Shown: positions 1 through 26,700 of the stretch, piece after piece
How positions within the stretch are numbered: the stretch's first letter is position 1
Layout: each line of letters starts with the position of its first letter
Assembly: GCA_020091685.1 (NCBI GenBank)
Contig: CM034613.1
Coordinates: 18,741,240-18,805,239, forward strand
DNA: 64,000 bases
Direction: 5' to 3'
Source of the DNA: Lutjanus erythropterus
Lineage: Eukaryota > Chordata > Actinopteri > Lutjaniformes > Lutjanidae
Position numbers and translations under genes: made by a program
The notes under the pieces: generated by a model
What the model was told of the DNA's origin: nothing
Seen by the model: only the letters and a program-made list of their open reading frames with translations
Databases searched by the model: none

Positions 1-1430
1 TAAAGAAGAGCTTTTTATTAATTACTTCTGTAACACTGAAACATTATGAATGACCTGGTCTGCATAGCAGTGGAAGTGCTCTCTTCTACTCAATATATAT
101 CTCTGAATAGAATACAAACGTTTTGTGAGAGAGAGCAAAAGCTTTGCAAGGGAATGCAAAATATTTGCAAAAGAATGCAAAAGTTACATGAAAGATCGTG
201 GCATCTTTTAAGAGGGAACGCAACAATGTTGTTAAGTAATGCAAACATTTCTCTGGAGAATGCACTAGTATTTTTTTTTCCTGCCCTGAATAGTTTTTCA
301 CCCTTTTATTCATGTTTTTCCCACATATATTTTCTTATCCATCTATTTTTTTACTCCGCATTGTCCCCGCAGGGGCCCTATATGTTGCTCATAGATAGTA
401 AAAGTCTGATTAAGAATGAAGAACAGAAAAAAAACAAGGGGTTTTACCAGAGGTGTGCAGGGCCTTTCAGATGATTATCCTGTCATTTATTTATATCATT
501 GACAGTAATGTAAGATTCAGTAAGTTATGTGACCTTTCTTTTGTTATGAACCTTAAGTTACACTGCTGATTAAGATTAATATCTCAAGTAGAACCCCAGC
601 CCAAAGTCTTGAACAGTTTTGGCCCCAAAGTGGCAAACACTGACAAAATCCCCCCTCTATCTTAAATCAATGTTATCTTGACTAAAAAAGCCAGAGAGGT
701 ATTTTCTGTTATGTGCGAAGGCTGTCGAGTTGTCCCAATACACAAAGCTGGAGATGACATTGATTCACCTTTCATTTGGAATTCTGCCAGGCATTCGGCC
801 ATTGATTTTTCACTATGAGGTGAGATATGAAATGTGCCATTTTATGTATCACATCTGAGCTACTCATACATTGTTGTTCACGTGGCGAATAGCTGTTTCT
901 CTGGCCACCTGCTCTCATTTGCTCCCATATACACACATGCAGACTCACGTCCTCACATGCACCGTACGTGGACACACATATTCGCAGCTGCTCACAACCA
1001 CATGTGTGGACACGAATGGCAGACAATGGTTTTCCAATACCATCCCCTCGACCCGTCAGCTCACAAATGAACACCCGTCCTTATCAGCACATCCGCAGTG
1101 TCTTTACTCCATTTCCCCTCCTGTGCTAAACTGTTAAAAGGATCTTTCCTGTGTGACTGGATGTACCGGTCTTCAAACAAGGCAGGAAAATAGTGAAAAC
1201 TAGTGTTACACTCGAAGAAAAACCACCACATGGTTAAATTGGTCAGCTGTGCGGTAATATCAAAGGAACAAACTGAAGATCTGAAAAATGTTCATCAGGA
1301 GCTGAAAACAGCATTTTGTGACACTGGATGCAAATTAGCTTACACATACAACCTTTTATTTGAAGGGTTGTACATAAGACTGTCATTACACTGTCATAGC
1401 CATGTCAAGACATCAGTCATGAACATGAAG

Positions 1431-2037
1431 ACACCCATGAATGTTTATGAACGTTGTCAGTAAGTGCCATTTGGTCAATTAATGAAAAGCTGACATTGTC
1501 TTCATTATGACAGCTTGACCTTAATCAAACCAATGCTGTCTTTGTGCGACAATTTGACATGAAGACAAAAGTGTCTTTGTCATGACAACTTGACATTGTC
1601 AGACTTAAAGAAACTGTTTAGCTTTATGTTTTAACATTACACTACACTGTCATATGTGGTTGGTTTTGACACTGGCTGTTATAAGACCATTATAGATGTG
1701 TCATGAATATTTCCTTGACCTCAAGTAAAGTCATAAATATCGGGCCTTGTCATAAAGGTGTCATTGCATTTTATTACACTGTCAAATACTTTTGTAACCA
1801 TGTCATGAATAATTTCCTGGACTTCAACTCAATTTTGGACTTGTCATAAAGATGTCATTAAATGTTATAAGGCCAGTTTGACGGCATGTACAGCACAGAG
1901 GTGATTTACAGATTTACTTGATGGACAGACAGCAGTTAGCTAGTCAAGCTGTCATAACAAAGTCATTTCATTCAAAGTCAGCTTTGCATTAAAAATGACA
2001 CATTTGACCAAACTGACAGTCATAAACATTCATGAAG
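1431..2037. mobile_element. Inverted-repeat element rich in TGTCAT
   Basis: The left arm (about 1431-1517, with ATGAATGTTTATGA, TTTGGTCAA, AAGCTGAC and ATGACAGCTTGAC) is matched in inverse by the right arm (about 1943-2037). The interior is packed with TGTCAT and CTTGTCAT motifs in loose tandem order. It has no open frame and is probably a non-autonomous hairpin-type DNA transposon. The family is not identified. Confidence 0.5.
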
Positions 2038-4091
2038 AGTCGTTCATATTCGTGACAGATAGATACAGACAGCCGTTAGCTTGTTTACTTGTTGCTTAAG
2101 TCTGCTGTTAACTGTAACTGGCATTGGCTAGTTAGCTTTGTTAGCCACGGAGCTATCTGTCTAATTATCTGACTGATTTCCCACATTGATTTTACACAGG
2201 AAAGTACATGGGGTGAGTTTAATATTCAGTTCATACTCAAGATAAAACCAATTAAATCAGTCCCGGATTAGGACTGGAGGCCGGTTCAGAGCTGGAGGAG
2301 GGATGGTGGGGGAAGTTGACATTGTCCTTAACTGTCAGCACCAAGGATATCTCCAGTCTCACGGACTGTCGAATGGAACTGCTTGCCAGAGAGAGCTTCC
2401 TCCAGGGCTTTCTATCAAAAGCATCTGCTCCTTTGTCTTTTAAAGGGTTTCGCAAGGATAAATGGCCTAAATGTATGTTTGGCATGTTTTTTTTATCTAG
2501 TATTTAACATCCTATAATATCATTTAATCTCTACCAGAGCATCTTAAAAGTGTTACCAAAAAAATAAGCACAAATGTTGCACAAAAAACATAGAAATCAA
2601 CTAATCTGTTCTCATTTACTAAATATACAAGTTTTTTTTATTAGTTTGAGACAAAATATATGTTAAAAACTCACTGTGTGTCTGATACACTTTCATTCAA
2701 GTCATGGTTTCTTGTTTCTCATAAGTGAAAACACTGCATATCATGATGAAGTTTAGTATTGCATTTGTTAATTAAAAGTTAATAAACTGTAATAAATGTT
2801 AAATGAAAGGTTGTGGCTGAAGAGATGCTGGTTCAGCTTATTATATTATACTTATTGATCATGTTTACTGCAGTACAACAGAATTAATATTAAGTTTATT
2901 TGACTAGAAAAAAAGGACTTGTTTTGAATTTTATACAAAATACACTCAACTCATTTTTTTAAAATGTAGTAATTTTAAAATTATAAAGGAGCCCAGACAC
3001 TTGTTTAAAAAAAGTTATAACTAATAGTATAATTTTTACAGTGTAAATATTGATTTTTTTTCTTCAAAGTGGTTTACTTTAAGAGCATTGAGCACATGTC
3101 AACACTTACTTTGTGGTTAGGGAGGTAAGCAGAAAACCTTTAGCAATTAAGGTTCTCAGTCTAAAGTCTGATGGCCTGGCCTGTAAAATCAATACACACT
3201 TGTGCTAGTCAGAAAATATTCTCACTTGGGTAAACAGTATGAATAAAGGATGCCGCCTGACTTTAAAATATCATACACTGCCTGCAATCTGTATGTTTTT
3301 ATGTGCCAGTAAACATCTGAATGGCATTTTATGGCATGTATCCCCAGCCAATGGGAAGTGAGCTGCAGTGCTGCTTATTCACCGTGGCATTTTGTGCCAC
3401 GCAAGCATGTTCCTGGGCAGCTTCGGGGCCCGGGGTGGCTTATGAGCTTGCGTAACAACTCATTAATAAAGTGGATGGGGGCCAGAGTCACATCTTCAGC
3501 ACATTTCATGAACTCGCCCGGGTTTGCAAATGCCAGTCAAAATGATGCAGTGGTGACGGCCAGAGCCTCTTTCTGTCCACCCAAGTCATATCTCTAAGTG
3601 AAGATCCCTGCTTGAGCATATGGGCCGCAGAAAGCAGCCTCTCCAATTCATCGCTTGACGCAAGATCCAGACTGTAATAAGAGGAGCCAAGCATCTCTGG
3701 CAATTTTTCACAATGACTCAGCCATCAATCACAGTACCAGCTCTGTGAAAATGGACTGATTTCCTTTCTTCCTGCAATACCTGACATGCAGTAATATAGT
3801 AAAAATACAATAAGAAAACATGACAAGAGACAAGTACAGAAAGCCTCATCACACGATATTAAAATTTAAGATGTATTAATCTGCTGGGAAAGTCTTCCAC
3901 ACACACTGTCAATGCAGTCCCTTATCTGTATGTGGTTGAAATACTGGGCTTAGAAAAGTTACCCATTAAACATTTACATTGTTCATTTAATTTTTGCAAT
4001 ATACTGTGAAACCTGCCACAAACAAGGAGCATCCACTACCTGACCATCACAAAACAGCAGAGCTGAAGTAAATATGGTTCTAACATTTCTA

Positions 4092-5640
4092 ATGCTAAAG
4101 ACGCTGGTGTTTTTCTCGTGAGCTGATGGACTACGAAGACTAACATTCACCAGGTGAGTGGGAACAACTCCAGCGGGATGCTTGTGTTGCTCTGCGTCTG
4201 CTGGACGTTTAAGTCGGAAGGTTTGCTAATGCGCTAGCTATAAAAAATGTATAAGCTGTTTCTGCGGGATTGTTTTGGAGTCTCTCTTACACATCCTTTG
4301 ATTCATCTTTCTTTCATCTTTCCTAACACAAATATTCAGTTTCACTTTCATTTTTTTTCCTACAATGTGTGTTATATTTAAAGTTATATTGACTGAAGTT
4401 TGGACCACTTGGGGGCAGCAGAATAAACTGTATATATTATCACCTTAAACACTTGTTGTGGTGAACACTTTGGCAAATGGCTGTCCATTTACATATTCAG
4501 CAGACACAGAGCAACATGAGCACAGTTTGGAGTTTGCTTTTGATCCAACATTCACTCTCCTTTTAGCTCTGTCTTTGGTCACCAGCTCTTGAGAAAAATA
4601 TCTCACTCTTAAGCTGCAAAATGCTTCATTACACGCACTAGCTAGTCACCAACTTTGTGACTCATTTGTTAGTTTATCAGAGACTAAAAACAACCTCTTG
4701 TTGCAGCTGGAAACAGTATTGATGAGAGCTGTGGGACTCAACCAAAACATTAAACTTTTGTTCCATTATTCATGTAAAAAATATTGATCAGTACACCTTT
4801 AAAGCTGCTATAATCAGCTCTGGGGAAAGATAGGTGAACATTGAAGAAATGAACTTTGTGATATAAATGTGCACTGATTACTGCTGAGATAACTGAAAAG
4901 AAGAATTAAAGAATTAAAATCACCATATGCAAATAGCATTCAGTTTTTTTCCACTTGGGGGGGGGGGAGCAGAACAAACTATAAACACAATATTGACATA
5001 TTAACACCTTAAAAGCTCAATAAGGCAAGTAGGCATTGTTTCTGATCAAATATTCATACTTTTATCTCCCTTTTGGTCTCCACCAACTCCTGAGGGAAAT
5101 ACTGGGCTGTTTAGCTGCTAAATGCTTCATTATGTTCACTAGCTAGTTGCTAACTTTGCCTGTGTGTTGTGTTGAAAACAGTTAGTTTATCAGATCTGAA
5201 GAACAACTTCAGCTTGGGCTGAAAAATTAATTGAAATTTTACCAAAATCCCAATATGGCTTAGTGCACTTTAGGAATCACAGATGATGCAATGTTTGTTA
5301 AAGGCAAAATGCATTTTAAATTAAAAACTGTAATGCTGCAGAGATGTCCTGGCCTACAGAGACAGACTTAAGAAAACATCTGTTTGGTTCAAATTCAAGC
5401 AACACATATTTTTAATATGTTTTTCAATGAAAGTGAGAATAATGATGCTAATAACACAAATCATATTGAAATTGCAATACCAGTCAAAATAACTGCAATT
5501 AAGTATTTTTTCAAAATCATTCAACCCTGTTTCTTGCTGCAGCTGGAAATGATGCTGATGAAAGCGGTGGAGCTGATCCGAAACATTCAACCAAAACAAC
5601 GAGCTGAAAGTTACTAAAATGCTGAGTAAAGCTGAAGAGT
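4092..5640. repeat. Two direct copies of a dispersed repeat
   Basis: The text around 4405-4755 (CACTTGGGGGCAGCAGAA, then AGCTGCAAAATGCTTCATTA, GTTAGTTTATCAGA and TTGCAGCTGGAAAC) recurs in the same order and strand at about 4952-5215. It continues at 5528-5640 after an interruption. The copies have diverged substantially. No coding capacity was seen. This type of sequence is common in fish genomes by recollection, but I cannot name the family. Confidence 0.5.
5216..5527. mobile_element. Small element nested in the second repeat copy
   Basis: About 310 bp beginning GGGCTGAAAAATTAATTGAA and ending near TCAACCC interrupts the second copy of the surrounding repeat. It separates GAACAACTTCAGCTT from TTTCTTGCTGCAGCTGG, which are nearly adjacent in the first copy. 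That interruption is the main evidence for a separate insertion. The interior is A/T-rich with no open frame. Confidence 0.45.
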
Positions 5641-6172
5641 CAGGTGATTATTTTCTTTCAGTTTGTTACAATGAATGACACTTTTCACATTACACACAGT
5701 CATTTCATCCATAATTCATATAAATATATTACTTGGTGCAACTTTAAAGACAAACATTGAATGCAATTTCATTTCTTTCTCCATAAACTAAAAAAAATAC
5801 ACACTGATTATATTGTGATCATAACCATCAGAACATGTCTGCACTTTATGTTTCTTTTCCTGCAGCATGAATCAAAACCATGATTGTAAAGTTACCTTAC
5901 CTCTCGTCACGTCTTCTGCCAGGTGAGTCGTTCAGGTGACTTTCATGTCTCCTGCTTAGCTTATCATGTCACGTCATGTAAAACACACAGTATCTGTAAA
6001 GAATTCATTGGTTACACCGGCAATGATATTGAAATATTTATTACAGCTTATGAAATCACTGCTTCTATTGTAAAGCAGACCAGAGCATACAGAGCACATC
6101 CACTGTTGCTGGGCCAAAATTTTATTTGGCACTAAAATGGACAGAGGGCTAATGAGGGATATTAACTGATAA

Positions 6173-6196
6173 TTTAAAAAAAAAAAAAAAAAAAAG
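6173..6196. repeat. Poly-A run
   Basis: A run of about 22 A residues on the plus strand. It could be a retroelement tail or simple slippage. No element body was recognised beside it. Confidence 0.7.
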
Positions 6197-6469
6197 GATT
6201 GATCGTTCCATCATTTGGAGGTCCTTCGCTGTCATCCATATAAAAGTGTTCCAAGACCCAGACAAAACACCAGAACTTTTGTCATAGCTAAGTGATAAAT
6301 CTTGATCAGTAATTTATTTGTTGGCAAACAAGTTTCACTGTTACAACAAATATTAGTTATGAGGTCATTCACCTTGGAAACCGTTACAAAAAGGAATAAA
6401 TAAGAAGCCATGATCATAGCCAATAATAAAAACTTATCTGTGCCACTAAACTTACTTCCATCCTCCATT

Positions 6470-6485
6470 TTTATTACTGTTTATT
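6470..6485 (-). promoter_or_regulatory. Candidate poly(A) signals (two AATAAA hexamers)
   Basis: Two AATAAA hexamers on the minus strand sit at 6480-6485 and 6470-6475, about 1.35 kb after the stop codon. Other hexamers at 7681-7686, 7405-7410 and 6313-6318 are equally canonical, so the choice is uncertain. Confidence 0.3.
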
Positions 6486-7831
6486 TCAGCAAATAAATAA
6501 ATATATCTTCTCCTCGAGGAAGAAAAGAAAAACACTTCCAGTTTTTCTCACTCCAAAAGCTCTTTCTTTAATAAGTAAAACAACCATCTTTCTTTCTCGT
6601 ACAAGCGCCTGGTGCTCATCAATGTTCAATTTGTTCTCTCTCTGAGATGCACAAGCGTTTTCTGAATGCCAATAAGAGATGCAGAATGCACTATGAACCT
6701 TTCCGAGGGACACCTCCTGATTAACTTGGACTTATTCTGTCTCCTCTGTGAATCAGAACTCTGCCATCTACACAGTAAAGAAAAACAAGGGAAAAGAAAT
6801 CAAACAGAAACAGAAAACAGACCTGAAACAGATGAATATGTTGCACGAAAATGCCTGCACGATAAGTGTTTTGTTGTGATATTTTTTGTGTTATTTTGTT
6901 TCTATTTAGATGGTCATTTCTCTGAAAGTGATAAAAGAGAAAAAAAAAACGAAAAAAAAAACAGACTGGTACCAGAAACCCAGATAGGCCAGCACAACAG
7001 AACAAAATTGCTCCTAACCACTACATTTACAGAGACAAAGGGTTTGCTCGGGAACAAAAAAAGCATACTATTATGTGCAATGCTAGTTATCTGTACAATT
7101 ACATAGAAATATCTCATAATTCTCTTATTAGTTTTTTCTCCCTCTTTTTAACAACTGTTATTACAGTAAAATGAAAGAAAAAAAAGAACAGCTATGCTTG
7201 AAAGCATACGATCAATAATTCCTTCATGGTAATTGTTCAAAATGTTTTTTTTTGTTGTTTTTGTTTTTTTGTCTTTTTTTCATTGAAGGGACACTTCAGC
7301 AAACAAAATGTGCTGCAACTCACCAAAGAGGAAGAAAATCTTTCAAAAAGTCAATATAGATACAGAAGTATAATAAAATAGTCCTTTTTTTTTTAAATTT
7401 CCCATTTATTCTGGCGAAGTCTATAGTTTAGACTTGTATAGTTTGGGGCTATGCAGTTCCTTTTTGACTGATATCTCTGAGAGCTAAAAATTCTGTGTGG
7501 GTAATTGTCTCTTTTCACACCGAGACAAAACACGCCAAACCACACAGGGTTTGAGAGAGGGGGGAGGGGGAACACAACATCAACAGATTCCCGCAATGTC
7601 TAACCAAATATAGTCACATATTATTCCCCCGTACGTAGCAATTATTATCCTGTTTGTGGTCGGCAACAGCGAGAGTACAGTTTATTCGCTCCGCATCAAG
7701 TCTTTGGGACACAGAATAAAAAGAAAGGCTACCACTGCCAACGACTGATGGAACAAGGGGACACGGGGAAGAAGAGAGGAGGACTACGGTAATAGGAGGG
7801 ATACTGGAGGAGTGGGAGGGGGGTGTTGGGC
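6470..7831 (-). other. adgrl3: Probable adgrl3 3' untranslated region (end approximate)
   Basis: The transcript must continue downstream of the TAG at 7832. The sequence becomes AT-rich with long T/A runs and has no sustained coding frame. AATAAA hexamers on the minus strand occur at 7681-7686, 7405-7410, 6480-6485, 6470-6475 and 6313-6318, so several cleavage sites are possible. The 6470-6485 pair is used here only as a provisional end. Nothing in the sequence fixes the true end. Confidence 0.4.
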
Positions 7832-8781
7832 CTATAGGCTGGTGACCAGGTGCGAGGGCTCCTGCGGGGCCTCTTCTGGAGATAGATCCTCTTTGTTCGG
7901 GGGCACGATGAAGCCATCGCTGCTGCCTCGCCCTAGCTGGTAGTAGGAGTGCAGCTGATGGAGGTGGTTACGTGAGCCCAAGTTGGGCATGCTCTTGTAG
8001 TAAACGTCGTCCGAGCTGGCCTCTGGGCTCTTGGCGTCCCCGCCGTCCTTGGAGCCGTCGGCGGATTCAGCGGACACGTCGGGCAGGCCAGACAGCATGG
8101 GCATGCTGGTGTAAAGGGAGTCTCTCTGGTGGCTGTGGCTGGGCGACGAGCCCTCGTCCTCGGTGTGCTCGTTAGTGAGTAAGGGGAAGAAGCTCTCGCT
8201 GTTCTCCTGGGGGATCCTCCTCCGAGACGAGGAGGAGGTGGTGGCGGAGGAGAAGGGGTGGTGGGGCAGCGGGAGGGGTGGCGGCACCGGCTGGTGGAGG
8301 TGATTATGGAGGTTGTCCACCGCCTGCAGCGACGGGGGTGGTCTTTGAGGCAACAGCGGGGCGTTGGACTCCTCACGGATTAACTCCAGGCCGAGGCCTT
8401 CGTCGTGGTGCGGCCCAAAGGTGGAATGGTCGTCCAGGCCCAGCGCGACGTTCATGCCCATCCCCACCCCCAAGCCCATCCCGTAGCCGCTGTCCTTGCC
8501 ACCGTTGCTGACATTATTGACCAGCTTATTCATCAGGTTCCGGTTCTGCTCCGCGGAGCGCTCGTGGGAGTTGTTGAGGTAGGAGGGGATGTAGTTGGAG
8601 GTGAGCTCTTTCAGGATCTTCTTTTCCAGGGTGGTCTCTTTGTGATTGTAGCCCCGGTCGATGATCTGGACGCAGTCACTCATGTACTCGGCGCTGGCGA
8701 TGCTGTAGCTGTTGCCATGGTTACCATTCAGTGGTAGAGTATCCATGACACTTGTATCCCGGGCATTGTTCAGGATTCCCT
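7832..8781 (-). CDS. adgrl3: adgrl3 terminal exon: distal cytoplasmic tail ending in PDZ ligand VTSL
   Basis: Two bases plus 315 codons and a TAG stop at 7832-7834. The acceptor is tttgtcattccag. The main frame starts (E)[17 protein letters not shown] and carries [50 protein letters not shown] and [16 protein letters not shown]. It ends [13 protein letters not shown]...HLVTSL. The C-terminal VTSL is a class I PDZ ligand, which in this family binds SHANK-type scaffolds. Two low-complexity stretches look expanded relative to mammals: a Gly/Met-rich run at about 8420-8500 and a Pro/His/Ser-rich run at about 8225-8350. The first 61 nt are also read in a second frame in one isoform. Confidence 0.96.
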
Positions 8782-11700
8782 CTGGAATGACAAACATGGG
8801 TCGGGTTGGGGGGTAGAGTGGGCGAATGAGAAGGGTGAAATCTGATGGGATGTAATTGCCACAGCTAAATGTCAGCCATTTTTTTTTACAAACACACATT
8901 ACGACAATACTGTAGTGCTTTTATTCTGAAATATGACCCTTAAGTGCTCTCAACATATTCAGTGTCATTCTCAATTCAATAAAGTGCACTTTATGGAAGT
9001 GAAGACCCTACAGTGTTTGGAATAGGTGAGACCTAAAGCATAATATTTACATTAAAATCCTGTATACTGCTAATATGAACACATCATACACACTTACCTT
9101 GTTACAAAAGAACATTTTTTTAAGACTTAATTTCACTTTTCATTACAATTTACAGGTTTGTACGGAAGCCCTGAGAGGCAACTGAGAAAATGAAATTCTG
9201 GTGGTCCATTTTCTGTCTGATCTGAACACTTTTCTCTCTTGTGTCTATGACTTATGAACAAGTGAAAATAGAGGTTTTGCCAGGATAATCTTTCAAAGTA
9301 AGTTCTTTTTTCCATCTGTGAAAACAGGTGGTTTTTATTTTTGGTCATTTCTCAATGCAGTCTAAATAAATGGTGCATATATCGTGTGTTAGCATTTGGC
9401 TAGAATTGTATTTTAATCTGTGCCAAAGATCGGTAGTCAAAAGAAAAACACACACTAACACACAATATAAGTAGCTCGTGTTTAGAGTGCATGGAGAAAT
9501 TAAAACCCACATAGAGGAAATCATGAACACTTTTCATGTTATTTAGACAATTGGGTAGTAAAGTCAAAAAAAAAAAAAAAAAGTTAATTTTTAACTTTTT
9601 TCCCCCTTACAAAACTTTTTTTTTTTTTTTTTTTAAATACCACATACAACTACTTATAAAAATGCTAAACTTTTTCAGCTTTTTCTTTTTTTTTTAACCA
9701 GACTTTTTTTTTCCACAGGACAATTTTTCTTTCACCATAAACATGGGAGAGAAAACTGCTTAGATCAGACTCTGAAAACTGATCACCAGAACTTTGTTTT
9801 GTCACTTGCCTTCGGGGCTTTCATAGATTTTACCATGGAAGTGATGAAAACACTGATATATGTGTGACACACGACAACACGAAGCTCAAGCACAAGCACA
9901 AAACACAAAGCTTATGCACTAAATTCAAGCAGTACAAAAACACAGCCATGCATGTCATACTTAAGGTGAACACAAACCAGCACACCAGCTGTAAATTCAG
10001 ACCCCAGCCATATTGTCCCATATGAGCTTTACAATTGCACGGTGTAAAACTGGAAGAAAAAAATTTATTTGTTGATGTCTGCTTTGTCAGCGTGAACGTG
10101 AGACATCGCTGTACACATGGATTAGTAAAAAATCTCAGAATCAACCCACACTGGCAGGAATGAGACTTTCTGTTCTCTCTGTTGCATGAACATGTAAATT
10201 TCATTTTTTATCAGTCCGACCGTGTCCATGCTAACGACATCAAAGAAAATGTTTGACGATAATTCAAACTAGCCCAGACAAGGCCATCCACAGAGCCTGA
10301 CCTCTTGAAAATTTGACAAGACGCATTTCTGAAAAACCTTCAAAAAGCGTATTAGCTTGATCAAAGTGAATGGTAAAAAAAATAATAATAAAATAAAATA
10401 AGCGCACGTACAAAGGCACGGATACTCAATATCTGCTAAAACAGTACAGATCAATTTATATCGACGTGCCTTATGAAATGTTGAGGTGAGTCTGAATGTT
10501 GACTGTAATTGGATTAGCTTATTCAGAGTGTGGTAGCAAATGGGCCAATGCCTGAAGTCTTTTCTTACATCAAGTAGTGCAAACTACAGTAAGCAGTGGA
10601 ATCCAGGATGTGATTTAAACTGATTTTTACAGCTCTATTTGAAATGGTGAGGGCCTTTGTCATAAAAGAATGCTATTACTTCCAAAGGGAATGATGTTTT
10701 TTTTTCATTACCCCTTTGTCAGCACTGAGTGAAAAGAAAGTAAAGCCAAAGTCAATTACATTTGATAAGCAATGTTTAGTTTGACTCCCATACTTGTCTC
10801 TCTGTAGGGCTCTTTTAGGGACAGCATGAGGGAAAGGAAAGAAGAAAAGAAAACACAATAAGCATAACAGTGACAGGTAGAAGAGAAATGTGCACAAACA
10901 GTATGCTGATGACGCATCAAGAAAATGTTTCTGGGATGCAATTGTTTTCTGTCACCATGCAAATTTTGCAGAAAGAACCACACCATATCTATTTACAAAT
11001 ACAGAAGAGAATACTTTCTTTTTCTACGGCTTTCTTCATGATCCTTGGAGTAAAACACGGCAACGGTCCTTGTGCGTCAAATGCACCAGTAAATCTCTTG
11101 ATGCATTAGCATTTTCATCCTTTCAGATATTTCTTTTACATCTATGGCAATCTAAGTGAATTATAGCCCTCTGTCACGAGCTCCATCGCAGCACTTGTAT
11201 TGCATACATAAATTATCCACTGATCAAAGCTCTCTGTGAGTTTTTATCTCAGTTTTACACAAGTTTCTCAGTTTTACAGACTCAAAGTTACAGAAACCTC
11301 ATATTGACTTCTGAGAGTTGGAATGAAATAATAACAGCTCTGCACAGGGAAACATCACATTCAGATGGTGAGACTGATCCCACATAAAAGTGGATTTTTG
11401 TGATGATTTGTAATAGTCAGATCTAATATTTATATTGGTGTTACAGTCAAAGACCAATATGTTAAAAAAAAAAACACCCCTCCCATCAAATGAACAATAA
11501 CTTTTAGATTAAATTCACATTGACTTAATGACCCACATTTTGAAGTATTGAATTATTACAACTAATGGTTTCAAATAAAAGGGCAATTCAGTTTTTGTAA
11601 AGTTCAAAGTATTTATGCATTAAAATGGGAAATTTTATTAATGAATATACCCAAACACTAAAGCTGGGTTACGCCAACAAGGATTCATTTGTAAAGCAAA

Positions 11701-14700
11701 TTAAATTGAAGAATCAAAGAATCATCATATTTGCTCTTCAGACTATTCTTGTCTATGCAATAGAAATGAGTTGCATTTTAAATTTTAATATCAGCTTCAA
11801 TGACATTTATCGCACACAACAGAGTTTGACAATCCAACAGCAGCATAAGAAAGAAAGAAATGCTAAAACTAAAAACAGAGACACAGAAGACATGGCACAC
11901 AAGCTTCACTGACAACGTTAGAGCACATTTAAAATAAGTGGGGGTGTATCTGGATCACCACAGGCACCTGTTCTTGATCGTTTTTACATCTACGTCGGCC
12001 AAACAGCCGTGTCTGAGCGTGACTTATGTGACCGAATTGCATGCCCTGACGCGAAGCCAAGATACACCTCCAGTGAAAAACCCCACAGCAAAACAAACCT
12101 GTAGGGTTTTTGCGAGAAAGCTAAAGTTTGTTCAATGCTAACACACAAAATCTAGAGCAGTGTTTTTTGTTTTGTTTTGTTTTGTTTTTTTTAATCAAAG
12201 CCCTGTAAAAACCCTCAAGGGTGAATACTGGGATTCCAGCTTAGTGCAAGTCCATTACTTCTAACTCTCCAATCATAAAGTCGCTTTCTGTTTCTGGGGA
12301 AGGTACAAAGATGTGCAACTTCACAGTTTCTCCAGGACCAGACATGAATAAAAAAAAAACACTGCTCCAGCCACAATGTTAAAGAATGAAAAGAAGCTAG
12401 CACACCTTGTGTGTTGTACATGCCCAGAGGGTTGTTATAGACTGCCGATTCCCCAAGCAATGTATTATAGGGATTGTTAGTGCCATGAGGACGTAGGAGT
12501 GCATTAGGTATAAGATGGTTAGCCATAGCCCCTGGAGCAGCCAGAAAGAGACAGAGTGATACAGAAAGAAGAAACAGAAGAGAACAAGAGTGCAGAGACA
12601 GAAAAAGGTAGGTGGGCAGATAAATTGAGATATAGACAGAGAGAAAGAGAGAGAACATACATATCAGTTGGGCAGATGCAGCTGAGCAATGACAGCCATT
12701 AACATCCAAATGATCACATGATCATTAATGTGAGGGGTTGTTGCTACATGAAAGTGGCAGAGCTGAACTGACATGGCTAATGGGACCGATGGAAAGTGTG
12801 TTAATTGTATTGTTAATGCCGGCCATTAATGCTGAGCCTGTTTTTGTGCTCCACATACAGGCAGCATACTCATGTCAGCAGACATAAATTACATAGAAGC
12901 ACCGACACGGTCAAGACAAAACACGTACTGCTACATTTTTAGACTCAAACAGGACAGAATACAATCATCAAACCACCATTTGGTCGACAGCGCTCCAAAT
13001 TATTGTAAATGACTGTTTGCTGCACACCCTCTACAAGACTGCAACAATTAGCAAGGAACTGTCAAGCTCTGATGAAGTGGTGTGCAGGGGGCTGTGTCTC
13101 TTTCAAAGATAGAGAAGACACCAGCAAAACTCAAGAAGATTAAATCATGTAATGGTCTGCTCTAATGTAAGAGGAAACTGACCCTTCCTAAGTCCTGCCC
13201 CTTTTTGCTGCATGCTCCAATAACAGAGCAAGCCTCAACTTTCTCCTGTCTTGACTCCTGTACTTAGATATGCTATTTGCTACACCTGTCTATGCTGAGC
13301 TAGTTAACAATTGATGCAGACTGGCTAGCTATTTGCTAACATTAGCTATCAGATGTAACAAGCTAAAGACTGATGTAAATTAGCAAGCTAGTTAGCTAAT
13401 ATATGACTCTGTGTAGACAATATATGCCACTTTTTCCACAAACATCTTATAACCATTTTCAAAATTTGATTTGAAATTTGAATTTAAATTTCAATGTAGG
13501 TGAGCCTAGCACATTAACATACCTGAGTACAGGAAACACAAAAGGAGAAAGCTGGCCGAGGTTCTGCCAAGCTTTATACTGTTATTGGAGTACAGAGCAA
13601 AAAAGGGCAGAATTTAGGAAGGGTCAATTGTTAGCATATCTGGCTAACTAGCTTACTAGCTACAGTAATAACGAGTGTAATTTCAAAAGCCAAGGAGAAT
13701 ATTATGGTTTATTGCTTATTATTATACTATTACTATCTACTGTGTGTTATTTTCCAACTGTGTGGAAGCAGATCCTCAATGCTCTTAGTTTTAACATCAG
13801 CTAATATTAGCATTTCTTTAAAGAATAAAATGAGACAGCGTTACATATGACGCTGGTCTTTAAGTGCAAACACGCTGTTTAAAATATGACAAGTATGTAA
13901 GCTAAGCAGTCAAACAGGGTTAAGTTACCAGAATAATAAGTCTGACGTTGCATTTTTCCTCATTATTATTTTCAACTAGCTCGTGATGCTAATGTTGGCT
14001 TAATCAGCTTGCTAGCTACAGCTGATCAGCTGAAATTTCAACCTGCAAAATTACTTGCAGCTGCCTAGAAATGAGAGGCTTGCTTTTGTTTACTTCTTTC
14101 TGAAATCAAGGGCCCATTGTTTCAAAAATAACTAAGAATTTTCGAGTGGTAAATCTGCCATCATTATCACTGTAAACAGCATATGTGCAGAGCGAGAATG
14201 AACAGCTTTACAGACATAGTAACGGCCTAGCAAATGGCCACATACTGAACTATTATTATTGCTTGTGGCAAAGCCAATCTTGTGAGCTGAAGTGGTGTAA
14301 TATTTCCTTTTCTCCACAGAGCAAAGTTCACATTTGGTCTGATTCTCTTATGTGCCATTGCTGAAATAACCTCTGAATGAAGCGACACGTCCTCTCTTTA
14401 GTCAAGATGGTCATTACTTTTGCTCGAGCCTCGCCTCCTTCACACAAACAGAACAGAGGCTCATTTTCTATTTATGCGATGCTTGTCCTCACATACTTGC
14501 TGTCAGGATCTTGCCCGAATGACTCATCAGTTTCCCAACCACATACTACTACACCAAAGCAACCTTCACAGTCTGAGCCCCGTGATTAGCTGCAGATTTG
14601 AAGGCTGCAATCTTAAACATGAATGGTGCAGATTCCCTGATGTTTGTTTTTCTTTGCTGTTGATAAAAATAATTTATTTTCAAGTGCTTGAATACATTAT

Positions 14701-17700
14701 GCGGAATATCAAGTATGCTGAAAATATTTGTGACTTGCATTCATTTCCTGTTTACAAGATTTTTTTCCCCCCTGTCAATGTGATATGATGCTATTATTTT
14801 TAAAGCAGCCAAATTCAAGACTTATGAGGGCGAAACACGTGCGTGCCTCCACGATGCACTATGCCAGAGCGGGTAAACATCTTTTATCTGAGGTACGAGT
14901 ACACAGCAATTAGATTCTCTGGCAGAGTGTACTGTTCTTTTCTAATGCTCTGAATCTGTCACACCAATGGAGGAAGATTTTTATGTTACCTTGTGACTCC
15001 CCTCATGTTTTCAAAAGTTGGTCTCCTACTTTTTGACGCCGTTCTAATTGCAGAAGTATTTTCTTTCTCGGAAGTCTCTCCTTAATTAAATCTTAAAAGA
15101 GGCTGATTCTGACTAATCTTTCAGCATTTTAAACATTTTTTATATGAGTTTACTATTAATTAGACCTATTATAATTTTGTTTGGAAATCAGAAGGTTGTT
15201 TTGATTAAAAAAAACAGTAATTTGCTGTTGCTGCTTGCCCTAATTACAGTGTATTCCATAAGCGCTGCATTCTTCGAATGACAGTTCCCCCACTTATTGT
15301 GTCTGTGTTTGAGAAATTGGACAATTTCCAAAACCACACTGATTGTGTGGTGCAATAATCCTGAATGCTGGGATAAATTGAACATGCAAGGCTATCAAGA
15401 TGATTGCATGATGATTCCGCTCTTGAGAAGAGCGCAATGAGAGTGTCAGCTGCGAGCTCACACTCAGGTGCAAAGAGAGGGGGAGACGCCGGGGAGGGGA
15501 TGGTGGGCGGAGAATGAAAAGGACAAATCAGCAAGAAATACTCGCTCCTCGACACATAATTCCTTAATAACAACACAGGAACAGCCACGGATAAGTGCAA
15601 CTCTATTTGCATCTGTTCTGTATGATACTTGTGGTGGCTCTTGAGCTCCTCTGAGTGTTGTTTGTATCAGAACCAACCAGAAGCAACTGTCTTCACTAAA
15701 TTTTTGAGTTTTAAAGGAGAAATCTGTAAGATATGTATTGTAATAAATAATAAAATTATCATGATATGTTATCAGAGATCAAGGAAAAATGAGTTGAAAT
15801 ATTTTCTTCTCTTACATCAATGCTCCAGCTGTGATATCCAGCATTGAAATTTCTATTCCAGGCCAGAATAACTTGTTTTTGTTTGCCTGTTTCATGTTAA
15901 TTAGCATTAAAATTAATGCTGAATGTTCGCCAAACGAGTAAGCATCTGTTTATGAGTTGTAAGAAATTATTAATAATCTTTTAGAAAGAGTAGATGTTTA
16001 TAACTGTTAAATTGAGAAACATGTTAATGGAGTCTGGCAGGCAGTCACTGAACTCAAACTCCAGAGTGTGTATTTTCAGAGCAGTGCACACGTCCTGCGC
16101 TCCTGCAGAGCTTCTGCAGCCTGCAGAGCGACTCTGGGGAGTCTTTAGATAGACTTGAATCTTCAAATTTTAGAAATCCCAAAAAATCTATATTTCAGAA
16201 ATCTTTCTCGGTGAGCTTTGTATCCAATTTGCCATTATTTGGGTGCTTGAAAATTAAATGGTTGAATAAAATTTCAAAAATGCTAAACTCAGTTTAGAAA
16301 AGTAAACTATAAAAAGCAGAAGCTAGAGAGCTTATTTCAGGCGCACTTGCACCGAGCCAAGGATATAATTAAAAAGCCTTTATCAGTCCCACCAGAAAGT
16401 TGTGGTGTTGCAATCACAACAATTAACACAAATTCAACCAATACCTGTGAATTCTCAATGACCTTGAAATTTTGAAAAGAAACCAAGGTTTATCATTGTT
16501 ATTGACTTTTATCAATGCACTTTAACATTTTATAATTTAGAGCTCCACAAAGATCTGGTGGACTTTTTGGTAAGTTTACCTGGAACAGTCGGAGCAGAGT
16601 GTGGTTTTTTTTTCTTCTAGAACAAGCCGACTTTAAATTTTAATGAATTTTAATGAATTATACAAGAAAAAAAATGCAGTGTTTTTCACTCGCTCCCACA
16701 ATTTCATTGCAAAAAACACTGCAAAATGCATTTTAGAAAAGCTACCATGAAATCATGCATTTTGGGCCATAACAATCCCCCCCAAAAAGCCTGCTTTATT
16801 GGTTAGGGCATATCAAGGTTAAAAATACGATTGCAATTTTTTTTTTTTAGTTCATTTTAAAACCTGAGAGAGTGAGTTTGATTCAAAACTAAAAAACTGG
16901 CTGTAAATTACAAGTTTTCTCAACCTTTTTTTCCTGTAAGTTTGGACCTGAATGAGAAAACAGTTGCTCATGAGAGCTCAAGAGTGTTTCACCATCACAA
17001 GTATCATATGGAACAGATGTTTTGAATTTAAGAGTTTTCTCCACTTATTTTTTTTTTTTTTTACAGTGCTGGTAAGAAGCCAGGGGTGTAAAATTAATAA
17101 TCTCTCTCCGCCTTTTGCCTTTATGGAGGATCCATGTAGGCTTTTCCTCAACAGCCAACCTACCGCCCCGATTCAGCCTCTCTACAACGTATAAAGGCTG
17201 TGTCTGTTGATGGTGCTAAGCTGAGTGCCTAATTATTGAGATCCTGACACTTCCCCCCCCGTGTCGAACATTAATCCATCATTGTAACTATGCATTAGTG
17301 TCTACGCAAGCAGGCGCCCAGAGCGAATTTAGAGAGTGAGCAGTGTGGAACTCGAGCCCTCCATCAAGAGATGCGATGAGCGGGGAGAGTGTTAGGGAGC
17401 GTTGCCAGCCATTTGCTACTTGATGTCAGATGTAGTCTGCTATCTATTTTTCCTGTATAACCTGAGAGACCGCGAAGTTAACTCTATTCACCGCGCTGCT
17501 GTCAAATGCATTATGGTAAAATACTTTTTATTAACGTGTTTCGGAGAGGGGAATTCCACTGAATTGATTTTTTTGGTTGTTATTCAGCACTTTTTCCTGA
17601 GAGTATGCCCAGGTTTTTGCAGTCAGATGGAATGATGTTCTATTGCTTGACAGGGGGAGAAAAATAATGACGGAATTCTACCCACCTGAAACAAGAATTT

Positions 17701-20700
17701 TTCAGAAACAGTTTGAGTGAATGCATGATCTATCAAAATTACACTTTTTTTTTATTGTTCAGAGGAAATGAAATCCTTTCTGTGCACTCCTTTAAATTAC
17801 TTTACGGTAGAAATTATTTGCTGAGGCTTCAAAATAACAGACGTAATGAACAATTTTCTGCAGCAGCATGACACCAAAGCGGGATTTTATCCTTTCAAAT
17901 CAATGCCTTGTATTCACCGTCACGTTCTCTTTCATCCAGGCAAAATATGTTGACAAACACACCCAGATATTTGAGCGTTAGATGGCGACTGACAGCAGTT
18001 CTGACGCTTCTCATATTTAAGAACTTGATTGAGTATTTGGTGATAATTGGCAGGTTTGCTTTGAATTTTTATCATCTGATATTTCTAAGCAAATTTTCAT
18101 GAAATGACTTATTTGCCTTGACTTGAGATGTTGTGTCCCACCTTTACTTATAAAAAAAATACTCTGAAGAAGAAGTGACGTTAAATGGAAAACAGCCATA
18201 ACTCACTCAGTCTTGAGAACTGATACAAAACCGTATTTTGAAGGGGTTTTAATTTTTACCCTTCAATTATGCTGAGAAAATACATTTTTCCCAGTAGGAT
18301 ATGATTTGTCCCAGTTCTCAAGAATGAGTGAACTACAACTCCGGAAAATAGTGAGAACTAATGTGTTTTATTAGTCATGAAGTCTAAAGTGAAGACCGGT
18401 GTATTGAGGAGTCATTAAAGTAAATATCTGCTGCAGGACCAAGTACCTCTGTTGAGTGACGCAGAGCTGTTGATGTCACCGGTCATGAAGGAGGACTCAG
18501 ACTGTTTTCTGACCGTGTCGTTCCACATGCGACGGATGCGGCTCTGCGGAGACAAACAGCATGTCAAAACATGTCACAATATCCACTTTAACACAGCTAA
18601 AAGTATTTTCTTTTAAACACAATGAAGTCTAAGACATGAAGCACCATCAGCTTTTTAATCAAGTATTTAAACTCTAGTATATGAAACATGTCAGCTGAGG
18701 GGATAAGTAACCTCCAATTAAAGATGAGCATTAGTACTGGGATAGGTGGAGTCAATAATAAAGTCATCAGTCAAGCTCTCCAAATCAGCGTCTCGGGTTG
18801 CAAAGGCTCAATCCGAGAGGGTTCATCCTGGTTAATTATGATGGAGTCCCACGGGCTGTTGCACAAGCTAAGGGTCTGGATATCCAACCACGGAGCTGAC
18901 TACTCTGTCCTGTGCCAGAGGGGCTTGGCAGAAGATTTCAGATTAATATATAACAGGGTTTGGTGATGGTGGAAAGAAAATAACGTTTAAAATCATTTGT
19001 GATGAAATGCTTCACTTAAAGGAGACTTTCAGCTTATTGCAACAAAAGTCTTATTTTTGTGGTTTTGATCATAACTCCTGTTTTAATAAGAACACTGATC
19101 TTTAAACTGCTTTAACAAAATATTTATTGTACAACATAATAGTAGAGTCAAAGCTAAAAAGCACAGGTTTAAAGGGACATATTTTCTTTCTTACCTGTAG
19201 TGCTATTTATCCATATAGATTGTTCTGGTGCGAGTTGCACAGTTTTTGTCCAGTCTGCCTTGTTGCGCATATAATGGAACTAGGTCGCACTTGACTTGTC
19301 GTGCTCAAAACGCCAAAAAACACATTTGAAAGACTCGACAGCAATGTCTCTTTCTCATTAGCAGCAACCAGTCAGGCTAAAGACAATTAAAAACTGGGGT
19401 TTCAAATCTGTTTCAGAGCTGCGGGGCAGGAAGTGACGTGATGAATGTGATCAGATGATTGATCGTGTTTTCTTTTGGTTGCAAGTCGCCTCGAAGTTAG
19501 CTCCTAAGTATTAACACTAATTAGCTAGCTGTGCTGCTACATAAACACAATACATAAACGAGGACTTTTACTTCTTTTCTTTTACAGCAAATGCAACACA
19601 CAACTTTTCAGTAGCTATAATGCTACACCCAAGCTATTCTACACACTTCTTAAGTCGACTTAAACAGCCTCAGTAGCAGCGTCTATCTTGTCCATAGCAG
19701 TCACCGTTTTTGTCATTACTCCTTCTTGACAACAGCTCGACAAAGGCATTAATTCCACCCGGTAGAGCTGATCGTCTAATCAATAGTCCCCCTGTGGTGC
19801 TCGTTTGTCGTTTATTTTTCAATCGAGAAACTGCTGTTACATGTCACAATGCCAGACCAGAGAATCAGTCAGCACCGTGGAGTGGGCGGATCTGAAGGTC
19901 TGGACCCTGGCAAGTCATCTGTCTCACCACGCAGGAGGAAGTGAGCATCTACTCACGGACAAGAGGTTAAAGCTCAACCGAGGAGGATGCCGTTAAAACC
20001 TACATCCTGTGCTGTCCTAAGCAGGGGACTCTCATCCGTGAAAAGGTGCACGCTTCTTCTTACGCGGTGATACGGTTCTTTCCACTGAAAGAAGATATTT
20101 GAAACTGCTCGCAACAAGGGCTGTGGATTATCTTGAGTAACCAGGTCATTTTTTTGCCATCTTGTTCCATTATATTTGAGAGGAGGCAGACAGATATACA
20201 TAGCTTGACAGGTAAAAGGAAAAATATGCATTTTTGATTTTGGGGTGAACTGCCCCTTTAAGAGTAGAGTCAGGCATTGAGGCAGTGCTTTAAAGAATTG
20301 TTTTTCTGTGATTGCCTTCAACATCTCAGACAGTTTTAAGCTTAATTAAGTCATTGCCATCACTACATTTGTAGCAACCGCCGCAGCACCTCAGCTAATC
20401 TGTCCCCTAAACTCTCCATGAACGGCCGATGTTCAGGTTTTTGTTCATAAAAGCTTCATAAACGATGTGAAAAATTCCCCACGCACGGGATCAATACCGC
20501 ACGTCCCCTGTAGGCATTTCTGTGTCAACTCCAGGCGACACGCGGCAGCTCATATATTGTTCCAGCGACGTACGCTGACGCAGCTGATCTCATTAACATA
20601 TTGTACATCGTGCAGTCCCCGGCACCGGAGGCACAGATGGGTTGAAAATGACACTGCTGTTTCTTCTTGTTTTTTTGGACAGATAAAACCAGTTCATAGC

Positions 20701-23700: not shown

Positions 23701-26700
23701 TGACAAAGGTATTTATAATTGTGCAGCATTATAAATTATTACTAACTTTATTATTATTTGCACCCGCGGCATGCTGCACGCTTCCAGACGCCGCGTGCGT
23801 CCTGCACCCATGATTCCGCTTTGTCAGCTTTACCACCGCGTCCCTGTCAGATGAACTCAAGTGCATCTTTATTCACACCAACTTTCATTCTGCTCATTTC
23901 AGTTAGCTTGAAATAGGATGACATTTCATGCTATTATATAACAGTGGATATTGTTCATGAATTTTATTCACTAGTTTTAGCTACTGTGACCATTTAACCT
24001 ACTTATCAATTATTTTTAGCTATCTATATCAACTATTTATCCATTACTTCTATCTAGGTTAACTCTTTCAACCACTGATGTATTACTTTTAGCTAACTGT
24101 GTCAACAGTTTAATTAATTTAAGCTAACTAGGCCAACCAACATTACTTTTACCTTAAAAAATGAAAATTGAATCCATTACTGTTAGCTTTCTATGCCAAA
24201 CATTTATCCATTACATTTAGATAGTAATTTCAACCATGCATCAATGCTTTTAACTATCTCTGTCAACCAAAATCCATTACTTTTAGCTACCTATGCGAAC
24301 CATTTATCCATATCCATCCGCTCTATCCTTTCATGCTCTCTCAATCCTAACATTTGGTGTTCAGACTCAAAAGGTAGATATGTATTGTTCAATCAAATCT
24401 TTCTTCTTGAGATCTTGAGCTGCTTTTCCAATTGTCAAGTGCTTCAAGTGCAGAAGTGCCCCCTGAGGTACGAGATGATTGCAACCACTGCCCAACACTT
24501 TGAGTCAGATTGGCTATAGATAGAACAAAAGAAAGGCAACCACAAGGCAAATGTGAGTGCTGAATCTACTTTATGTTACAGTACTAATATATATCGAGTG
24601 TGCACGGTGATGATACAGGTGCCATTTAAAACTAATCTTGCTTGTCACATCTGTAGGCTATGCATATCTAAGATGGGAGTGCTGTGTGCACACTAATGCA
24701 GCCTTCAACGTGACTGAGTACTCTACAATAAATCATGTTAATGATTCAGAGAGGCGGCGAGATGGATTTGGGTGTGGATTTGTTCATATGGAGAAGTAAA
24801 TGAAAGATGGCACTATGGGGAAAAAAAGGCCTCTCCAATTTTGGCTTACTTGATCTCAGGTTCATAATCCTGATAGCTGAGCAATATGACAAGAAGAAGA
24901 AGAAAATAACAAAAAGAAAACAGGCAAAAATAAATCAGATCACATAACAAAGAGATGGAGAGGTGTAATCCTGAATGTGTGGCCATAAATGCAGTGCACA
25001 AATTTAGACATTAAGAGGGAAACAATACACCAAGAAGGAACATTTTGGCAGTGGAGATCAAAGCTACATTCACAGCATCCACATCCAAACATCAAGGCCA
25101 GACATTCATACATTTTGGGAAGGGATTTGTTAGTGATTTACAGGTGATAACCATAATTATCTCGCTTCACAGAAGTATCTAGCTCCCCCCCATAAATGCT
25201 GGCAGACTTTCGCATTTAAGCTGTTATAAATGGGCCAGGTGTGCGGCAAAATAAATGATTTATGAATTCACCAAGGCAACCATTAAACATAATTTTCCCA
25301 GGGCTGTCTTAATGACCTGGTGGGAGAGGTACTTCATCAAGGCGATTGCCCCCGGAATGGACACAGAAACACAAGCGGTGGGCACAGAGAGAACAAAATA
25401 TTGTCCTCTAACCAGTGGCAGTTCTGCTCAAAGAATGGTGGATGATAGAGACACAAGAGGTCATAAGAAATGCGTCCAAGAGGACAGGATATGAAGAGGC
25501 TACGACTCATATCGCGCGAGGCTTATCTTCTTCTGGAGTTATCAGATAAATGTGGGGATGAATTTGAGAGCTGCACATGGAGAGAGCCTTGAGGCAAAAC
25601 TTCTGAGACTGCATAACAGTCACTGAGATGCATAACGGCTCCCTTACAAATGAAGAGGGAACATTTCAGCTGAGTTTTATCCTGTCAGGACTGTTGCATG
25701 CCTGAAAGCTAATATTAGTAATAAAATAGCAGTTACAGAACAACTCACTTCATATTTCTGGCATCATTAAGTTCAAAATTGTTTATGTAAAGTGAATTTG
25801 GCAAGTTATTTAGTAATAATTCTAATTAAATGTGTATTTTAAAGGGATAGTTTGTATTACTGGATATGGGGTTATTTGAGGTACTTGCTGACAGCTAGAA
25901 GAACTGCTGTGGACTGAGTCAGCAAGCAAGCATTTTAGCCACTTAAAAAAAAAAAAAATAATAATAATAATAACAGCATCAGTTTAAGTGTATGGCATAT
26001 TTAGAATATTTTCACTGCAATACTTTGCTATCAGACAGCCTTTTCTGATGGGAAACCATCATTTTAAGAGCCAAATAGCACTTTCTCCAAACCAACCAAA
26101 CTCCACAGATGAAATCAGTAATTTTATCTCATAGAGCACGGGAGTTGCTGGTCTACTGCTGCCTCGATTGTTTAGGTAGTTTGTGTTATCGTGTGACTTT
26201 GGTGTCTTAAAAGGACAGTTTGGATTCACCAAAGTCACACAATGACAAGAACAAACTAGCAGATCGAGGCAGGGGTGGACCAGCAACTCCTATCTTTTGC
26301 GAGGTAAAATTGCTGATTCCGCCAGTGCAATTTGGTTGTTTTGGAGGAAGTGATATTTTGCTGATGGAAACCCACCGTTGGTATTAGAAAAGGCTGCCTG
26401 ATGGCAAAGTAAAGTGTTGAAAATTTCTAAACATACCATACACAAACTGATATGGATTTTCTTCTTTTTTTAAGTGGACATTTTTTAACTGGCTAAAATA
26501 CCTTTTGTTGCTGACCTTGTCCACAGCAGTTCATTGCTTAGCTTCTGTGCTGGTGCTCCACTGCATCCACTGCAAGTAATACACTGACTATCAACAAGTA
26601 CCTCATACAGCCCTACATCAAATAATCCAAACTATCAAACTATCCCTTTAATCAAATTTTAGAATGCTGAACATGGCATCTAAGCAATATAAGTACTTAA

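Follow-up and report, generated by a model that had tools for sequence, protein, structure and literature searches.

In the fish Lutjanus erythropterus, the last exon of adgrl3 (latrophilin-3) raises a question with two sides: How do the same 61 nucleotides come to encode the beginning of a long cytoplasmic tail in one reading frame and the last residues of a short one in another, and has selection kept both frames? We have followed this question in the window, by which we mean the whole stretch of 64,000 nucleotides analysed, where the gene occupies the minus strand from E19 (62364) to the end of the E31 coding sequence (7832).

The adgrl3 locus

Fish exons were located by comparing with the window, blastn included, the mouse Adgrl3 exon sequences given in PMC13108381. 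E19–E23, E25–E27, E29, E30, and E31 form an ordered match to Adgrl3 on one strand, from 62364 to 7832. The encoded protein matches the latrophilin cytoplasmic domain of Pfam (PF02354, E = 3e-69 and 4e-54, the former in E31) and the family 2 transmembrane domain (PF00002, E = 3e-24), and fish and tetrapod L3 proteins are among its close named relatives in the protein database. Judged by its domains and exon order, the gene is the orthologue of ADGRL3. The exons of interest lie at its 3' end: E27 (18447..18543), which is constitutive in mouse and from which we joined the following ones; E29 (126 nt, 12406..12531), an optional in-frame exon in mouse; E30, starting at 10811; and the terminal exon E31, the coding part of which covers 7832..8781. 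The junctions of E29, E30, and E31 have AG/GT flanks.

Other mouse exons were sought in the same region. No counterpart of E28 was found at 12532–18446, either by blastn of the exon or by a scan for AG..GT intervals of the same length. For E32, the alternative last exon of the mouse, blastn with its first part as query showed no counterpart at positions 1–18446 of the window, and in an ungapped scan the best peptide match reached 8/25; a C terminus of the E32 type may be absent from L. erythropterus. A search of viral contigs returned 12 pattern matches and no relatives.

Donor choice in E30 and the short tail

According to Wang et al. (2024, PMC10830413), inclusion of exon 30b in mouse Lphn3/Adgrl3 puts exon 31 into another frame; this exon occurs in 20–25% of the mRNAs and moves coupling of the receptor from Gαs to Gα12/13. 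With the E31 frame shift thus in print, the switch is not new; what is new here is its fish counterpart and the selection test applied to the dual-frame stretch. In the open-licence literature, the same paper was the only one found to deal with ADGRL3 and E30b.

The fish E30 has a single acceptor, the exon starting at 10811 after ...CTAAAAG, and two donors 34 nt apart. The upstream donor at 10794/10793 (CAA/GTATGG) closes exon 30a (EPYRET.., 10794..10811), which has 18 nt, all 18 identical to mouse 30a, and keeps the frame. The downstream donor at 10760/10759 (CAAAT/GTAATT) closes exon 30b (10760..10811), which has 52 nt, 49 of them shared with mouse 30b, and moves the frame by one. The 34 nt that belong to 30b only (10760..10793, 31/34 as in mouse) are read in the tail frame alone. 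Measured against the donor consensus, the 30b donor fits 7/9 positions and the 30a donor 6/9. The first base of E31 is 8781, preceded by the acceptor CATTCCAG/AGGGAA.

When these exons were joined and translated, two outcomes appeared. If E30 is skipped or 30a is used, the first residue of E31 is E or K and the long tail runs in the canonical frame to HLVTSL-stop, a PDZ-binding end; if 30b is used, positions 8781–8721 supply the last base of a split Ile codon, 19 further codons and a TAA ending at 8721. As a source of a tail, the third frame of E31 was ruled out by a TGA at its fourth codon. The first-pass annotation of this DNA had stated that 8721..8781 appears to be coding in two frames and that joining the long E30 donor to E31 shifts the frame; this observation holds, and its coordinates are exact. 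It did not mention the second, upstream donor of E30, by virtue of which the switch involves selecting between two donors of a single exon. The sequences printed for mouse exons 30a, 30b, and 31 (PMC13108381) yield both outcomes on translation, and the alternative mammalian C terminus given in the annotation proved correct.

The mouse system (PMC10830413) and the fish gene have in common the exons, the two donors and the frame shift, with tails that agree to within 3/19 residues; the mouse switch comes with expression and G-protein data, that of the fish is described here from DNA. The fish sites and frames also fit the annotation's proposal that one splice choice replaces the long tail and its PDZ-binding end by a short tail, as has been published for mouse (PMC10830413). 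We consider it highly probable that the adgrl3 splice switch known from mouse is present in a fish.

The short tail also occurs in database proteins. A search for proteins bearing it returned 205 matches with E ≤ 1 among 206 candidates. The 120 listed were all tetrapod by name (1 newt, 4 turtle, 6 bird, and 4 squamate species, the rest mammals), and 119 of them were identical over the last 24 residues, the exception being a deer with P for S. The short ending is shared by human isoform 2, RefSeq isoforms 20–22, and bovine isoforms 4 and 8 of ADGRL3. Compared with these 120 proteins and with mouse, the fish tail has NP in place of AS and P in place of Q, so that 3/19 residues differ. Conservation from fish to mammals, as claimed in the first-pass annotation, is partly supported, by the DNA of this one fish compared with mouse and by tetrapod protein records, with these three residues differing. 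A search with the fish tail itself (262-aa query; candidates of about 144–458 aa) gave 1 candidate and no match; among solved structures, 32 sequences matched, none of which aligned past residue 185 of the 262-aa query, so that the tail was not reached.

Could the long donor of the fish be a relic, with 30b unused in L. erythropterus? The lack of any fish record of the tail, both among the 120 of 205 matches listed and in the fish-tail search, would agree with this, but donor, extension, and tail frame are all intact and 91–94% identical to mouse, and the long donor is the one closer to the consensus. A relic therefore seems most improbable to us, and 30b is presumably used in fish.

If the switch operates in the fish as in mouse, transcripts would pass from E27, with or without E29, through the short donor of E30 (30a), or past a skipped E30, into E31 in the usual frame, to yield the long cytoplasmic tail with its PDZ-binding -LVTSL end. 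Use of the long donor (30b) would instead add 34 bases to the mRNA relative to 30a and advance the frame by one, E31 then contributing 19 residues and a stop, and the resulting receptor would lack the -LVTSL end. A stop codon in the last exon, with no exon junction after it, is not expected to elicit nonsense-mediated decay; since the tail stop lies in the last exon, the 30b mRNA should escape this decay. The choice of isoform matters because in mouse it sets the G protein of a synapse-forming receptor, of which only the long form has the C-terminal end recognised by the postsynaptic scaffold. By analogy, binding to Shank/PSD is expected to be lost in the fish short form, with coupling biased towards Gα12/13. 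The two cysteines of the tail and its -TTEW end might possibly serve as lipid-attachment sites or as a weak PDZ ligand.

Three further observations concern the neighbourhood of the switch. At 10756–10761, were the 30b donor left unspliced, the tail frame would end at once (AYQM-stop), so that intron retention would produce an even shorter C terminus. The introns flanking E30 each contain one copy of TGCATG, which we take to be an RBFOX-like site, an unremarkable number. Positions 24850–24876 hold the likely counterpart of the mouse micro-exon E24 (27 nt, AG/GT flanks, 18/27 nt alike), with a putative peptide YQDYEPEIK versus YEDNRPFIK in mouse, where E24 also alters G-protein coupling.

Constraint on the overlapping frames

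In evolutionary terms, the matter is whether the second frame has been selected for the peptide it encodes or has merely followed the fate of its surroundings. For the synonymous-rate comparison suggested in the first-pass annotation, degenerate codons that encode an identical amino acid in both members of this one fish–mouse pair were counted; residues unaligned in the protein alignment, Met and Trp codons, and codons whose amino acids differ between the two species had been dropped beforehand, and E24 was omitted. Synonymous differences amount to 2/18 in the dual region versus 283/551 elsewhere (Fisher p = 5e-4) and versus 82/171 in the remainder of E31 (p = 0.002), values of P that derive from a single fish–mouse comparison in which neighbouring codons are not independent. 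Excess synonymous conservation is therefore present in the overlap, within this pair.

The dual region is not the sole slow part of the gene, an idea that had to be rejected because E29 and E30a, both read in a single frame, are low as well, with 9/35 and 0/6 synonymous differences (jointly 9/41). Windows of 18 codons starting in E29 drop to 1 difference, under the 2 of the dual region. The second frame could be a by-product: everything between E29 and the beginning of E31 would be frozen at the nucleotide level by splicing signals that serve this heavily alternative portion of the mRNA, combined with a very conserved canonical protein, and 30b would matter only by removing the PDZ-binding tail, the exact short peptide being unselected. 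This explanation, to which we accord a little less than even probability, also draws support from the longest run of fish–mouse identity in the compared exons (52 nt, E31 22–73), which continues for 12 nt beyond the stop of the second frame (8709–8720) before the first difference occurs. With E29 and E30a low too and identity extending past the tail stop, a constraint on splicing or RNA may be at work. Within E29 (12406–12531) there is, moreover, a run of 33 nt identical to mouse, perhaps reflecting splicing signals.

Openness of the second frame is no evidence in itself and was set aside as such, given that 162/544 windows of 19 codons with the same shift are open in both species. Likeness of the shifted translation is more informative. 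The four windows holding the tail core score 16, 16, 17, and 18 of 19 and share the top of the ranking with windows past the stop, those running through the tail stop reaching up to 19/19; the mean of all 544 is 9.4, rising to 10.1 for windows with a canonical identity of 19/20 or more. Windows that are open in both species reach at most 16/19, a value shared by at least 12 overlapping ones starting at codons 423–434, all of which extend into the tail. In simulations, an open frame with a likeness no lower than the observed one had a probability of 0.0003 under model A and 0.0001 under model B, both using the codon identity of exons other than E29 and E30a (236/510). Under model C, which uses the codon identity of E29 plus E30a (32/41), tail preservation has P = 0.15, a value favouring the by-product explanation.

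The pattern of substitutions adds to this picture. The 61 nt of the dual region are the same as mouse at 57 positions, and the four differences all alter the tail peptide, none being silent in it, while two are silent in the canonical frame; thus conservation is lacking at the beginning of the tail and present in its 15-residue core. In the 30b-only extension, by contrast, all three fish–mouse differences fall at third codon positions and are synonymous in the tail frame. Only 20 of the 102 possible single changes there would be silent, which gives P of about 0.008 for 3/3, assuming equally likely changes. This is not what a mere by-product would lead one to expect, and neither is the sameness of the tail in 119/120 of the tetrapod proteins listed, although these are related sequences.

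The overlap is thus poor in synonymous differences; selection on both frames, proposed in the first-pass annotation, is not established as the cause, considering the low values of E29 and E30a, the identity past the stop and the outcome of model C. We nevertheless infer that selection may have acted on the tail peptide itself. If so, its 19 residues would have a function of their own, and in human ADGRL3, a variant within the initial 61 nt of exon 31 that looks silent would be a missense change for the second frame. This would bear on how variants are interpreted in a gene that has been linked to ADHD.

A similar situation appears in a class of non-triplet splicing described in worm and human, in which both frames are likewise open over about 60 nt; in the worm, wobble-site conservation is higher in this dual-coding class (PMC13247117). 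The main text of that paper contains neither Adgrl nor Lphn. No discussion of second-frame conservation was found in the accessible sections of PMC10830413, nor any paper linking latrophilin with dual coding among the open-licence literature.

The second frame in the paralogues

In the terminal exon of mouse Adgrl2, the second frame is also open and reads TFTEQCPGHKCHGYSTAKW-stop, ending at the same place. Between mouse Adgrl2 and Adgrl3, the overlap shows 4/16 synonymous differences versus 203/333 elsewhere (p = 0.005). Here the E29 counterpart, with 17/25, is not slow, a combination that argues against the by-product explanation. However, among the joins tried from the printed exon table, none enters the second frame of Adgrl2, so that this paralogue shares the open frame with Adgrl3 and differs in having no tried tabulated join that would use it, as would suit an unselected peptide. 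The Adgrl2 pattern could represent either an old double-coded exon fallen out of use or an old constraint at the nucleotide level, unrelated to the peptide.

On the former possibility, one may speculate that the second frame is older than the vertebrate duplication of latrophilins: A double-coded exon with a tail of the form EQC.G.KCHGYST..W would have been selected for that tail before the split of Adgrl2 and Adgrl3, would still be used by the Adgrl3 of fish and mammals alike, and would survive as an open frame in Adgrl2, where either an exon not yet recorded would use it or it would be decaying. We regard such an ancient origin as rather doubtful. In mouse Adgrl1, the same frame gives APLGRPGSLWHGHPAT-stop, which is largely unlike the others.
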